The translations under genes and the position numbers were made by a program. This document shows, piece by piece, positions 6,149 through 17,096 of a stretch of 17,096 nt of DNA. This DNA is from Gemmatimonadota bacterium (GTDB lineage Bacteria; Gemmatimonadota; Gemmatimonadetes; Longimicrobiales; Longimicrobiaceae): assembly GCA_019348475.1 (NCBI GenBank), contig JAHWJJ010000028.1:1-17096 (forward strand), given 5' to 3'. The notes below the pieces were generated by a model. That model saw only the letters and a program-made list of their open reading frames with translations, did no database searches and was not told where the DNA came from. How positions within the stretch are numbered: position 1 is the first letter of the stretch; every line of letters begins with the position of its first letter.

Positions 6149-6655
6149 GGTTGAAGCCCCGCGCAGTTTGCGGGGCTTTCCGCTGTCGTTGCGGCGGCTT
6201 CAGCCGCTCAGGCGCGAGGTCCGCCATCCTGCACCAGACGCCGGCGCTCGCGCCGTGGCGAAGCCAGCCGGAGCGAATGAATTCGCCGCTGGAAAACCGC
6301 GATGTCCGCCTGCGCGGACGGCTCCTGCCGCGCGCCAGGCGAGTGCACACCCGCGGTCCCCCCGCCGTTGAAGCCCCGCACAGTTTGCGGGGCTTTCCGC
6401 CGTTGTTGCGGCGGCTTCAGGGGCGCGAGGTCCGCCATCCTGCACCAGACGCCGGCCCGCGCGCCGTGGCGAAGTCCCAGCCGGAGCGAATGAATTCGCC
6501 GCGGGAAAACCGCGATATCCGCGTTCGCGGACCGCTCCTGCCGCACGCCGGGCGAATGCGCACCCGCCGTCCCCCGCCGTTGAAGCCCCGCGCAGTTTGC
6601 GGGGCTTTCCGCTGTTGTTGCGGCGGCTTCAGCCGCTCCCGCGGTCCGTAGCCGC
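6149..6655. repeat. Three-copy structured direct repeat (about 215-bp period)
   Basis: Units begin TTGAAGCCCCGC at 6151, 6368 and 6580 (spacing 217 and 212). The first two are full length and the third ends near 6655. Each unit opens with the hairpin AGCCCCGC-N7-GCGGGGCT, enclosed by a TGAAGCC...GGCTTCA outer pair. The two full units continue with a block containing CGAATGAATTCGCCG and a second hairpin. That second stem reads GTCCGC-CTGC-GCGGAC in unit 1 and TCCGCG-TT-CGCGGA in unit 2, so pairing is kept while bases change. The array fills the gap between the immunity-like gene and the DUF2254 stop codon at 6667. No convincing gene lies in it. Confidence 0.88.
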
Positions 6656-6666
6656 GGGTGCGCGCC

Positions 6667-7968
6667 TCACGAGGGGAGCAGGCGCGTGGCGGCCTCTTCC
6701 ACGCCCACCCGGTCGCCCGCGCTCTCCACTCGCGCGCGGGCGTCGTCCAGTACGGCATGCGCCTGCGCCAGCAGAACGGGGCGCCGCGACGGGGGCACCA
6801 GCGAGGCCAGCCGCGCCAGCACCTCCAGCAGCTTGCGGACGATGCCGGGGTTGGACGCGCCGAAGTGGCGGATCTGGTCGAACGAGAGCCCCACCGCGCG
6901 CTCGAAGGTGGGGTGCCGCGCGTGGTAGTGCACCCGCCCCTCCTCCGTACGCCACGGACGCGGCGGCGCGCGCGTCCCCATCTCCAGCAGCACCTCGGCC
7001 AGCCGGTCGATGCACCGGAACGCGGTGGTGGGGTCGTTGATCCCCGGCGACAGTGCCTTTACCGCGATGTCGGAGATCTCGATGATCCCGAACTCCACGT
7101 CCTGCTCCGGCGTCCGCTCCGGCCCCAGCAGAAACGCCTTGCGGACGTGCGCGCACACCTCGTCGTCCACCGCGCCGGGCGGGGAAACCTTCGCCAGCGG
7201 CTGGCCGGGGAGCACGAAGTCGCCGATCTGGGGCTCCATCGCGATCACCAGCTCTTTGTCCTTGCCCATCCGGAACAGGCTGCGCCCGTCCACCGCCTGA
7301 AGGTAGCCGGCGGAATCCGCCGTAACGGTGACGGACGGCTGCTCCCGCGGACGCGGGTCGGGGGGCTCCGCGGCGTCGGCGTGGCCGATCTCGTCCGGGA
7401 ACAGGCGGTGCACGTGGTCGAGCGTGCGGCCCGCCACCCGGTCCAGGATGGCCGCCACCTGGATGGAGCGCGCCGAGTGGTTGATGTAGAAGATCAGAAA
7501 GCCGATGGCCACCAGCACCAGCACCACCGCGAGCGTTACCCCCACCCGCGGCACGAACGGGTTCCCGCCCTCCTCGGCCGAGCGGACGGTGCGCAGCACC
7601 AGCACCGTATACGTAAAGGTGCCGATGAACACGCCCAGCACCAGCTGGTTGCCGCGGTCCGACGTGAAGTTGCGCAGCACGCGGGGGGTGAACTGCGTGC
7701 TGGCGAGCTGAAGCGCCACGACGGTGACGGAGAACACCACGCCCGTGACGGTGATCAGCCCGCTGGCGATGGCCTCCAGCACCCCGCGCGCCCCTTCCAC
7801 GCCACCGCCGAAGAGCCAGCTGTCCAGCATCTCGGCGTCGAAGGCGCCGCCCTGCTCCGCCTGCGTAATCCCCACCGCCAGCAAGGCGCCCACGAGCGTC
7901 AGCACGCTGGGAACGAACCACAGGCTGTCGCGGACGCGGATCCAGACCAGGCGCAGTTTCGCGGGCAT
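6667..7968 (-). CDS. DUF2254 family multispanning membrane protein
   Basis: The 433 residues match the DUF2254 (COG4325) predicted membrane proteins, whose function is unknown. Four membrane segments are seen at about 17-35, 64-88, 108-126 and 141-162. The family block ALQLASTQFTPRVLRNFTSD (85-104) links the second and third. The long soluble C-terminal part includes QAVDGRSLFRMGKDKELVIA, GDFVLPGQPLAKV and the conserved SDIAVKALSPGINDPTTAF. ATG 7968 was chosen on family length, with weak GAGCGAG ribosome-site similarity before it. Its start lies 11 bases after the DUF389 stop, so the two genes are almost certainly co-transcribed. The structured repeat array begins just after its stop and may end the transcript. 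Confidence 0.92.
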   Translation of the reverse strand: MPAKLRLVWIRVRDSLWFVPSVLTLVGALLAVGITQAEQGGAFDAEMLDSWLFGGGVEGARGVLEAIASGLITVTGVVFSVTVVALQLASTQFTPRVLRNFTSDRGNQLVLGVFIGTFTYTVLVLRTVRSAEEGGNPFVPRVGVTLAVVLVLVAIGFLIFYINHSARSIQVAAILDRVAGRTLDHVHRLFPDEIGHADAAEPPDPRPREQPSVTVTADSAGYLQAVDGRSLFRMGKDKELVIAMEPQIGDFVLPGQPLAKVSPPGAVDDEVCAHVRKAFLLGPERTPEQDVEFGIIEISDIAVKALSPGINDPTTAFRCIDRLAEVLLEMGTRAPPRPWRTEEGRVHYHARHPTFERAVGLSFDQIRHFGASNPGIVRKLLEVLARLASLVPPSRRPVLLAQAHAVLDDARARVESAGDRVGVEEAATRLLPS

Positions 7969-14584: not shown

Positions 14585-14836
14585 GTGATCAGGATCGTAC
14601 CGAATTCCGGCCGGCCGCAGCCGCCCAGCGGCGGCAGGATTTCTACCTCGCGCTTACCCCTGGTTACCGGCACCGCGCAGCGTCCTCCAGCGCCTCGTCC
14701 GGCGATACAGATCAGACAAACGCGCGAAGAACCCCGATCGCTCGCAAGGCGCGAGCAATCGGGGTACCCGCAGCTCAATCCGGACTGCCCATCCAGCGGA
14801 TCGGAGCCGGGGCTGGGGGTCAGGAGGCGCACATGA
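14585..14836 (+). CDS. Possible small ORF with strong ribosome site
   Basis: GGAGGAG (14574-14580) stands 4 bases before GTG 14585, which opens an 83-residue proline/arginine-rich frame (MIRIVPNSGRPQPPSGG...). An ATG two bases earlier is followed at once by a stop. The product has no recognisable fold, and the terminator-like hairpin at 14731-14765 lies inside it, so it may be a relic or chance. Otherwise 14454-14819 holds only that hairpin. Confidence 0.2.
   Translation: MIRIVPNSGRPQPPSGGRISTSRLPLVTGTAQRPPAPRPAIQIRQTREEPRSLARREQSGYPQLNPDCPSSGSEPGLGVRRRT
14731..14765 (-). terminator. Terminator-like hairpin after the lipoprotein gene
   Basis: A 15-bp stem with one mismatch (ACCCCGATCGCTCGC at 14731-14745, pairing with 14751-14765) surrounds the loop AAGGC. 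On the minus strand it is followed by TCTTC. It lies about 55 bases beyond the lipoprotein stop at 14820. Confidence 0.65.
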
Positions 14837-15584
14837 GCGCGCCGGGATCCTCCCGCACGTGCACCTGTGCGTCCGCAGCCTTACCGTTTGCATCGGTGAC
14901 CACGACCCGGAGCGTGAAATCGGTATTGATGTCCCCGCTGAGCACGCCACCCGTGTACGAACTACCGGAGCCGACAAGATTGCCGTCGTACCACCAGTTG
15001 TACGTGTATCCTCCGCCCCCGCCGCTCGCATGTGCCGTCCAGGTACACTGTGTCCCCGGGTAGATCTCGGAAGGGCCATCGATTGTAACCGTGGGGGACG
15101 GAGGCACTTCTACGGCGCAACTCCTCTCCCCGTTGTGCCAGAACGGCGTAGTCCCGTTGGCGCATGTCCACTTTCTGCAATCGGAGTCTCGTACGCCTAC
15201 CCTCACACCGCAGAGTGCATTGGACGGACACGCTGACGCGGGGCAAGCTTCATAGCAGTCCCAGCAGATGTGCGAGTACCACGGTGTCAGTTCCGACTTA
15301 CCGGGACACTGATACCAGGCCAAGTCCTGGAAGCCCGAAGCATCCGGGATGATCTGAGTAACCACACCGCCCGGCTCCCCACAGGCCTCCATTGAACAAT
15401 TCGGGCTCAAGGCGCTGGTGCTGAACTCGATCGGAGTGTCAACAGCCGGCACGGTGTCATACGATATGCTGGTCATGTGCGGCGGCAGACCCACCGGGTT
15501 GGGCTGCTGGATCATCGACGTGGCGTCGCACGCCGCAAGCGTAACCACGATAGTGCCGAGCAGACCCGCGGCGCGTGTGATCAT
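14820..15584 (-). CDS. Cysteine-rich lipoprotein with C-terminal Ig/PKD-like domain
   Basis: The 254 residues begin MITRAAGLLGTIVVTLAACD, a lipoprotein signal with lipobox LAAC and modified Cys19, so the protein is membrane-anchored outside the cytoplasm. After a proline-rich spacer comes a cysteine-dense region (C63 to C156) including CWDCYEACPASACP (107-120), eleven cysteines in about 95 residues. A beta-sandwich of the Ig/PKD kind follows (about 163-246: PTVTIDGPSEIYPGTQCTWT, then TYNWWYDGNLVGSGSSYTGG and DFTLRVVVTDANGKAADAQV). I know no family for the cysteine region. ATG 15584 follows GGCAGGA at good spacing. Base composition is less GC-rich than neighbouring genes, hinting at transfer or a surface-protein bias. 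Function unknown; disulfide-stabilised binding or an exposed surface role is inference. Confidence 0.8.
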   Translation of the reverse strand: MITRAAGLLGTIVVTLAACDATSMIQQPNPVGLPPHMTSISYDTVPAVDTPIEFSTSALSPNCSMEACGEPGGVVTQIIPDASGFQDLAWYQCPGKSELTPWYSHICWDCYEACPASACPSNALCGVRVGVRDSDCRKWTCANGTTPFWHNGERSCAVEVPPSPTVTIDGPSEIYPGTQCTWTAHASGGGGGYTYNWWYDGNLVGSGSSYTGGVLSGDINTDFTLRVVVTDANGKAADAQVHVREDPGALMCAS

Positions 15585-15651
15585 GATCGTCCTGCCTTTT
15601 TTAGCCAGAGATGAGAGGCCCGTCGGTCATCCGCCACCGTGGGCGACGCCG

Positions 15652-15840
15652 CAAAGATGGGCCGGCTGCTGGAGATGCTGTCGGACCGCGTCGGCGCGTT
15701 CGAGGGCATCGCGAACCAGCATTCCCTCGCAAGACGGTGGTCCTCGACCGCGCGCGCATCCTGCGCCTGCTGTCCCCGATAATGCGGGCTCGCCGAGACT
15801 CCCCTTACTGGATTGGCTACGGCGGCAGTTCCTCCGCCTA
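15652..15840 (+). pseudogene. Possible frameshifted gene fragment
   Basis: Two adjoining + frames look coding-like. ATG 15658 opens MGRLLEMLSDRVGAFEGIAN with high-GC third positions. After about 15735 another frame reads KTVVLDRARILRLLSPIMRA and ends SPYWIGYGGSSSA at a stop inside the hairpin 15821-15852. One indel would join them. No family is recognised. This could equally be the untranslated leader of the lipoprotein gene on the other strand. Confidence 0.25.
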
Positions 15841-15852
15841 GGAACTGCCGCC
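15821..15852. terminator. Perfect hairpin after the RiPP-like gene
   Basis: GGCGGCAGTTCCT (15821-15833) pairs completely with 15840-15852 around a 6-base loop. It lies 18 bases after the peptide gene's stop (minus strand) and separates it from the lipoprotein gene. No T-run follows, so termination may be partial. Confidence 0.75.
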
Positions 15853-15869
15853 GCCTTCTCCCGCCGGGG

Positions 15870-16013
15870 TCATTCACAGCACTGACGCGGCGGGCAGTAG
15901 GTGTCCAGGCAGCTCTGCGCGTTCTCCCGCTCCGTGGGCGCCAGCGGGGTGTTCGGCGCCTCGAACGACTCGACGGTGAGGGCGTTCAGGTCCAGCTTGA
16001 GCTTCGCTTCCAT
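15870..16013 (-). CDS. RiPP-like precursor peptide (pinensin-type leader)
   Basis: This 47-residue peptide starts MEAKLKLDLNALTVESFEAP. Such a lysine/leucine/aspartate leader with VESFE is typical of small lanthipeptide-like precursors of the pinensin type, frequent in Longimicrobium-like genomes. The tail NAQSCLDTYCPPRQCCE has four cysteines (35, 40, 45, 46). Ser34 and Thr38 (and Thr22, Thr27 further up) are the only dehydratable residues after the leader, so at most a few thioether rings could form; disulfides are an alternative. GGAGG (16019-16023, minus) lies 5 bases before ATG 16013, an excellent ribosome site. The gene has a candidate promoter and ends in a hairpin. No LanB, LanC, protease or exporter is in the window, so any maturation enzymes would act from elsewhere. 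Too small for many annotation pipelines. Confidence 0.75.
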   Translation of the reverse strand: MEAKLKLDLNALTVESFEAPNTPLAPTERENAQSCLDTYCPPRQCCE

Positions 16014-16070
16014 GCTATCCTCCAGGAAAGGCGTCAACTCTGTCGGCCGTGGATTCGGACCGACCACACA

Positions 16071-16099
16071 AGAATATCGTCACCGCACGCGCTGCGCAA
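16071..16099 (-). promoter_or_regulatory. Candidate promoter of the RiPP-like gene
   Basis: On the minus strand TTGCGC (16094-16099) is followed by exactly 17 bases and TATTCT (16071-16076), a fair sigma-70-type match. It would start RNA near 16064 with a leader of about 50 bases ahead of ATG 16013. The rest of 16100-16185 shows no gene. Confidence 0.45.
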
Positions 16100-16185
16100 C
16101 CCGAAGGCGCAAAACGCACGCACAGTTGACTACAAAGCTCATGGGGACTGAGTTGCGGGGGTGATCCACCACGCAAACGCCGCCC

Positions 16186-17096
16186 CTACCGCCGATCGGC
16201 GCCGGGCGGTGCCGGGAGGGATGAGAGATGCCCGGTTCCCGCCGCCTCGTTCACCTCCCGCGCCGCGCGCAGGCCGGACCGCAGCGCGCCTTCCATCCAT
16301 CCCGGGCGCGCGGTGGTGTGCTCCCCGGCGAAGTGGACCCGGCCCACGGCGCGCGCCGCCTCCGGGACGAACTCCAGCAGTTGGCCCGGGCGCCACCAGG
16401 GATAGGCGCCGCGCGCCCACGGGTCGGCGTCCCAGTCCTTCGACGTACCCACCTCGAAGTGGGCGGCCGCGCCCGGAAAGACGCGCTCCAGGTGCTCCAG
16501 GGCGAAGCGGACCCGCTCCCCCGGGGGTAGCTGCGCCGCGGCGCGGGCACGGGGCCCGGCCAGGTACGTCTCCAGGATGGCGCACTCGCCCGCCTGGCCC
16601 TCACTCGCGGGGTTCACCATCTGGATCGGCGTGTCGGTCTCCGCGTATCCGCACAGCCGCTCGTCTTCCCAGAACCGGCGCCTGAACTGGAGGAAGATGC
16701 GCGTGACCGACGTCTGCGGGGTCTCGCGGATCGCCCGCATCCGCTCCGGTTCCGGCGGCGGCGCGATCTCCATCCGTGCCAGGAGCGGGAGCGGGACGGC
16801 GCAGACGACGTAGTCGGCCCGGACGGTCTGGTTCGAGCCGCGGTCGAGGTACGCGACACTCGCGCCCCCGGCATCGTGCGTCACCTGGACGACGGGCGCT
16901 TGCAGGCGGATGCGGCCCCGCAGCCGGTCGGCGAACGCGCGGGGGAGCAGGTCCGTGCCGCCCCGCACCACCGACGGCGCCCCGCCGCGGTGGAGCGCCA
17001 GGCCCCGCAGGTGCGCCAGCGCGGAGACCGCGTCGATCCCGTCGCCCAGCAGCGACGGGTCGCCGTGCGTGAGCTCCACCGGAGTGCCGTCGGGGG
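16186..17096 (-). CDS. Flavin-dependent amine oxidase, C-terminal part
   Basis: The frame runs off the right edge, so the N-terminal FAD-binding Rossmann motif is outside the window; about 303 residues are visible. GGAPSVVRGGTDLLPRAFAD, with the following DRL, is the conserved segment that positions substrate and flavin. RADYVVCAVPLPLLARMEIA is the usual GMG-preceding strand block. The C-terminal FAD motif reads VHFAGEHTTARPGWMEGALR with SGLRAA after it, as in monoamine oxidases and related polyamine or L-amino acid oxidases. WARGAYPWWRPGQ matches the aromatic-cage strand, in which a tryptophan pair (PWW) sits near the flavin. The substrate is unknown. The enzyme lacks visible membrane anchoring at this end and stops at TAG 16186-16188. 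Confidence 0.9.
   Translation of the reverse strand, partial: PDGTPVELTHGDPSLLGDGIDAVSALAHLRGLALHRGGAPSVVRGGTDLLPRAFADRLRGRIRLQAPVVQVTHDAGGASVAYLDRGSNQTVRADYVVCAVPLPLLARMEIAPPPEPERMRAIRETPQTSVTRIFLQFRRRFWEDERLCGYAETDTPIQMVNPASEGQAGECAILETYLAGPRARAAAQLPPGERVRFALEHLERVFPGAAAHFEVGTSKDWDADPWARGAYPWWRPGQLLEFVPEAARAVGRVHFAGEHTTARPGWMEGALRSGLRAAREVNEAAGTGHLSSLPAPPGADRR

Follow-up and report, generated by a model that had tools for sequence, protein, structure and literature searches.

A Longimicrobium peptide as a probable substrate of a class I lanthipeptide pathway shared by dispersed precursors

The locus considered here raises the question of how a RiPP-like precursor peptide would be matured when its gene lies apart from any modification enzyme. 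The window (the whole stretch of DNA that was analysed, 17,096 nucleotides, on contig C302) encodes on its minus strand, at 15870-16013, the 47-residue peptide MEAKLKLDLNALTVESFEAPNTPLAPTERENAQSCLDTYCPPRQCCE (codons 15873-16013); the ORF, its sequence and its four-cysteine tail, as given in the initial annotation, are borne out by ORF calling and translation. From comparisons of this sequence with its relatives, we propose that the gene probably encodes one of the substrates of a class I lanthipeptide pathway that is shared by precursors dispersed over the genome of this Longimicrobium (Gemmatimonadota), a reading to which we assign a probability of roughly three in four. The features on which the argument draws are as follows.

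15870..16013, minus strand: precursor peptide gene, 47 codons plus TGA stop (ORF; leader profile; alignment with 12 distinct relatives)
15963..16013, minus strand: leader, residues 1-17, MEAKLKLDLNALTVESF, with LxLD and Lx4F motifs (pattern, profile score, NF038180 at 15.6 bits)
15873..15914, minus strand: core, residues 34-47, SCLDTYCPPRQCCE ([ST]C..T.C....C in 13 of 13 sequences, window peptide included)
16019..16023, minus strand: GGAGG ribosome-binding site (sequence; 5 nt before the ATG, 16013)
15819..15854, minus strand: hairpin 3' of the stop, 15 pairs, 6-nt loop, no U-tract (fold; terminator scan 0)
16071..16099, minus strand: promoter TTGCGC-17-TATTCT of the initial annotation, unsupported (7 of 12 consensus matches)

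The ATG at 16013 is supported by three relatives (P0002, P0007 and P0009) that have MEAK at the equivalent place; P0001 has EEAK at that position, without Met. The GGAGG site reported earlier is present at the stated spacing, and SD-like words lie upstream of 156 of 170 precursors, compared with a fraction of 0.17 of 5000 random 19-mers. The hairpin behind the gene is real, but it has no T run after it, and a terminator consensus scan of 15500-16400 found none. The proposed promoter is not supported: when its 100 nt were dinucleotide-shuffled 500 times, 341 shuffles equalled its 7 of 12 consensus bases, and a stricter promoter consensus scan of 15500-16400 found none. Given the hairpin without a T run and the empty terminator scan, the description of the gene as carrying complete expression signals is too strong. 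The unsupported promoter and terminator, together with a degenerate copy of another gene family in the downstream spacer, would suit a relic, in which a copied leader gene has lost expression or maturation; yet the ORF is intact, the ribosome site is good, and metagenomic relatives have kept the core and, in three of them, the start codon, so that we regard a relic as very improbable.

The degenerate copy (15663-15716) belongs to a multi-copy small-protein family (~80 aa, ARLLEMLSDRFGAFEAIA); 4 of the 10 genus genomes gave matches to it. Also downstream of the precursor, positions 14820-15584 (minus strand) encode a protein of 254 aa, rich in Cys, whose start resembles that of a lipoprotein and for which Pfam gave no match. 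Elsewhere in the window, at 6150-6650, the segment RAVCGAF.C.CGGF ... QPERMNSP is repeated several times in translations, and a like segment occurs on contig C175 of the same genome; this is perhaps a local and dispersed DNA repeat.

The initial annotation described the peptide as an orphan, pinensin-like RiPP precursor. Its relationship to pinensin-type leaders stands, but against NF038180, the NCBIfam pinensin leader, it scores below the cut-off of 24 bits; a paralog at C285 just passes (24.4 bits), as do members from 7 of the 21 family genomes. The sole Pfam match to the window peptide, ATP_sub_h, was at chance level (0.012, below cut-off) and was set aside. Scored with a profile built from the leaders of 158 precursors outside its own genome, the window peptide reaches 30.5 bits, against 7.3 for the best of 20,000 shuffles. 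We define on this basis the VESF-leader precursor family of Longimicrobiaceae, to which the window peptide belongs by a leader profile built without any sequence from its own genome. Judged by sequence, the peptide most likely resembles a pinensin-type precursor in its working, yet lies outside that family by NCBI's cut-off.

The family comprises 171 distinct precursors extracted from loci in the window's own genome and in relatives (158 from outside the own genome), drawn from 60 fetched stretches, loci from searches and operon stretches rather than from all leader matches. The extraction pattern itself requires parts of the leader motif, so that leader column frequencies and counts depend on it; it used no Cys filter, and still every one of the 171 has at least two Cys. 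A leader pattern with LxLD and Lx4F is common to the 170 other precursors. The sequence G[TS][VILAM] after the leader, present in 141 of the 158 relatives' precursors, is absent from the window peptide and from 18 others of the 171.

The peptide is no orphan. The own genome (4.08 Mb in 504 contigs, 76.6% complete) has 13 NF038180 matches at E <= 10, on 11 contigs; each falls in a short ORF, with the leader towards its beginning and three or more Cys. Besides the window peptide, there are thus 12 more precursors on 10 other contigs. One of these paralogs (L009; G000:C285:3150-3395) has many spaced Asp-Thr pairs ahead of its Cys-rich end. Related genomes, in which a lack of homologous leaders had been named as grounds for rejecting the initial annotation, have such leaders in plenty: 49 matches in G010, 45 in G014, 36 in G011 and 34 in G017, with 1 to 4 LanB matches in each. 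In G017, the 30 leader matches listed, out of 34, sit on 12 contigs; three among the matches listed are on a LanB contig, 67 to 160 kb from LanB, and one further precursor, recognised by pattern on C6, is ~3 kb from LanB.

The immediate gene neighbourhood is not conserved. An amine oxidase gene near the precursor was considered as a conserved partner and rejected; its relatives in G010 and G011 (~50% identity) have no precursor in the 10-11 kb around them. In these two genomes, 40-residue orthologs of the window peptide are flanked by an aconitase or methyltransferase-like gene and by another methyltransferase (for the G011 genes at 7285 and 8038, methyltransferase is assigned by BLAST match only). 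Because the amine oxidase relatives are without a precursor and the orthologs stand in other gene surroundings, there is no synteny with the window. The methyltransferase-like gene divergent from the orthologs (L186:9513-10199 and L187:9342-10031) is 81% identical between G010 and G011. The two orthologs themselves show 5 synonymous and 8 nonsynonymous codon differences, which are few for a selection check.

The core provides a second line of evidence. A core profile search returned 11 proteins with the core, the already-known P0001 among them; P0002-P0011 were found by a profile of four core-bearing sequences, and since that profile held the core, their likeness is partly selected. Twelve of the 13 distinct aligned sequences end in CC[AE], and the invariant positions of the alignment include Cys35, Thr38, Cys40 and Cys45. 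On the strength of the shared pattern and these invariant positions, the window core looks constrained. Across family cores, Ser/Thr is enriched relative to Cys at offsets -1 (0.389 vs 0.195), -5 (0.377 vs 0.193) and +3 (0.306 vs 0.193), with z-scores that are inflated by related cores. The window core fits offsets -1 and +3; at -5, the family's second strongest offset, it has no Ser/Thr for any of its four Cys. The motif [ST]C.[DNR]T.C occurs in 11 of 171 cores, compared with a shuffled mean of 0.46 and a maximum of 3 in 300 shuffles; three of these 11 cores lie beside LanB operons, HSCYDTVCC and HSCLRTACC among them.

Ser34 and Thr38 had been singled out earlier as the only Ser/Thr close to the cysteines, which is correct for residues adjoining cysteines; besides them, Thr22 and Thr27 follow the leader. 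Two conserved Ser/Thr beside three to four Cys would allow at most two conserved thioether rings, and the remark that the ring pattern would be unusual therefore holds. The same imbalance, and the departure from the -5 offset, could also be read as signs of a peptide that shares the leader but forms no thioether, namely, a Cys-rich disulfide or metal-binding peptide with the conserved C....CC as its functional part. We consider this quite unlikely: all 13 sequences keep Ser or Thr at position 34 and Thr at position 38, and the [ST]C.[DNR]T.C motif is also carried by precursors that adjoin LanB/LanC.

If the peptide is a lanthipeptide precursor, its enzymes are likely to be encoded on other contigs. 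No LanB or LanC was found among the five Pfam-scanned window proteins near the peptide, in agreement with the earlier statement that no maturation gene is nearby, and contig C302 has no LanB/LanC matches; the clustering of precursor with LanB/LanC that is usual for class I lanthipeptides, and not strictly defining, is absent here. The combination of LanB dehydratase and LanC cyclase is present in the genome, with LanB (PF04738) matches on C322 and C261, each with an adjoining LanC. On C322 the LanB is a single full-length protein that includes PF14028, and a C39-peptidase ABC-type protein is encoded there too; on C261 the LanB is split between neighbouring genes, one for PF04738 and one for PF14028. 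The C261 contig stops 189 bases past LanC, so that any precursors there would be unseen. Contig C175 encodes an ABC transporter 75% identical to the one that flanks such clusters in relatives; no precursor was found on C175.

The C261 LanC has a ~250-residue C-terminal extension with an RRE-like predicted fold (L026:17285-18043, G000:C261), the last ~115 residues having a predicted fold like those of the RRE proteins PqqD, TbiB1, TglI and TbtB. In known RREs a three-helix winged HTH comes after beta strands, and PMC12710340 counts LxLD and Lx4F, the leader motifs, among the sequences that RREs recognise. Kinship of LanC with LanM cyclases shows in a TIGR03897 match of E 7.8e-74 and 249 bits, below the cut-off of 304. 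Of 7996 proteins scored in a whole-LanC profile search, 1903 reached E <= 1e-50; the lengths of the 120 listed, 632-718 residues, leave room for the C-terminal extension. Genes were called with a simple ORF picker; for three sequences in the LanC alignment, whose called frames ran longer, just the final ~690 codons were used.

Co-occurrence links the leader family to LanB. Among 21 family genomes, the 10 with leader matches (E <= 0.02) are exactly those with LanB at E <= 1e-5 (Fisher p 2.8e-6, kinship ignored); for one of these, G015, the result depends on the threshold, its leader matches being weak (best E 0.0047) and gone at E <= 0.002. LanC-like proteins are more widespread (13 of 21): the genus members G009, G012 and G016 encode LanC-type proteins but neither LanB nor a leader match. 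G013 has a single leader match, adjoining its LanB. In a phylum sample of 200 genomes, leaders (E <= 0.002) were found in 3, all with LanB, and LanB in 10; 7 genomes, G015 included, have LanB without such leader matches. Outside the family, LanB alone is no predictor of the leader.

Adjacency in relatives points to the C261 type of LanB. Sixteen LanB stretches were read, 12 of which have a LanB-N at least 38% identical to the C261 LanB, and leader-family precursors lie beside this LanB at 7 of these 12 loci. At the other 5, including the own one, no precursor was found in the fetched stretch (some at contig ends), nor was one found in the stretch fetched for a 13th, weaker C261-like locus (L183, 29% identity). 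Between LanC and an ABC transporter there are nine precursors at G011:C103 and six at G010:C23 (the transporter was assigned by Pfam for G010 and G007; the G011 gene begins alike and was outside the Pfam scan). A separate PF14028-type gene was recognised beside LanB at 5 of the 12 loci (L026, L174, L176, L177 and L181), a count affected by gene calls that merge frames at other C261-type loci. Two LanB-adjoining precursors, L182:12000-12242 (G013) and L176:7825-8097 (G011), have cores made mostly of short Ser/Thr/Cys repeats.

The same precursor role could be served by the C322 set, that is, the full-length LanB, its LanC and the C39-peptidase ABC-type protein, the last of which would remove the leader as the product is exported; a paralogous precursor in the own genome, ~8 kb from the C322 LanB, speaks for this. 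However, the full-length, high-scoring LanB type was found in just two (G000 and G017) of the 10 family genomes with leaders, whereas the shorter C261 match type occurs in all 10, and the window leader is without a GG motif for the C39 peptidase; we therefore find the C322 set an unlikely modifier. G000, the own genome, groups in one genus with G010, G011 and G017. A scan of genome contigs with the C322 LanB yielded three distant loci only, which were not used. The earlier suggestion that enzymes encoded elsewhere modify the peptide is upheld as the likely one by the dispersed leaders, the LanB/LanC on C322 and C261, the co-occurrence and the LanB adjacency in relatives.

For the shared, dispersed pathway that we favour, we infer the following course. 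The conserved leader (LxLD...Lx4F, with its VESF end) would be bound by a shared enzyme set, through the predicted RRE-like fold in the C-terminal extension of LanC. The split C261 LanB, as separate PF04738 and PF14028 proteins, would dehydrate Ser/Thr, and up to two core residues, Ser34 and Thr38, would become Dha/Dhb and be joined to two of the four Cys; the remaining two, probably the CC pair, would stay free or form a disulfide. The leader would then be removed by a protease and the product exported, plausibly by the ABC transporter whose ortholog flanks the clusters in relatives.

Gene-cluster mining seeks precursors within seven genes either side of LanB/LanC, according to PMC7268733, and would miss many dispersed precursors. 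Searches of PMC open-licence text turned up neither a dispersed class I system nor a LanC-RRE fusion, which is not proof of absence in print. If the proposed reading is true, a genus with a cultured species (Longimicrobium terrae, isolated; PMC7291104) holds a class I counterpart of the prochlorosins, with a leader-docking domain built into the cyclase that would be usable for modifying unrelated peptides, and with a natural set of more than 100 diverse cores with which to study how a single set of enzymes copes with many substrates.

Two known systems invite comparison. The prochlorosins and synechococsins (class II, ProcM) resemble the window family in having many genome-scattered precursors, one conserved leader and shared enzymes: procA/syncA genes are described as occurring scattered as individual precursor genes (PMC10783134), and many prochlorosin-type precursor genes as distant from their LanM (PMC7268733). 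They differ in that prochlorosins use one LanM and Nif11-type leaders in ocean cyanobacteria, whereas the window family combines LanB, LanC and a VESF leader in Gemmatimonadota. It may be, with the chances evenly balanced, that Longimicrobium independently evolved a prochlorosin-like many-substrates system from class I enzymes, in which an RRE-tailed LanC and a split LanB capture dozens of singly scattered precursors; the two-Ser/Thr, four-Cys core of the window peptide would then be among the few products that have been conserved and not diversified. The pinensins and pinensin-like lanthipeptides (Bacteroidota, class I; NF038180) share with the window family the leader family, a split LanB, described for pinensins as pinB1/pinB2 in PMC10112250 and PMC7268733, and a LanC related to LanM cyclases, a kinship stated for the pinensin family in PMC7268733. 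Pinensin precursors, in contrast, are described inside their gene cluster, whereas those of the window family are dispersed, and the window peptide differs from pinensins in its sub-cut-off NF038180 score and in its core.
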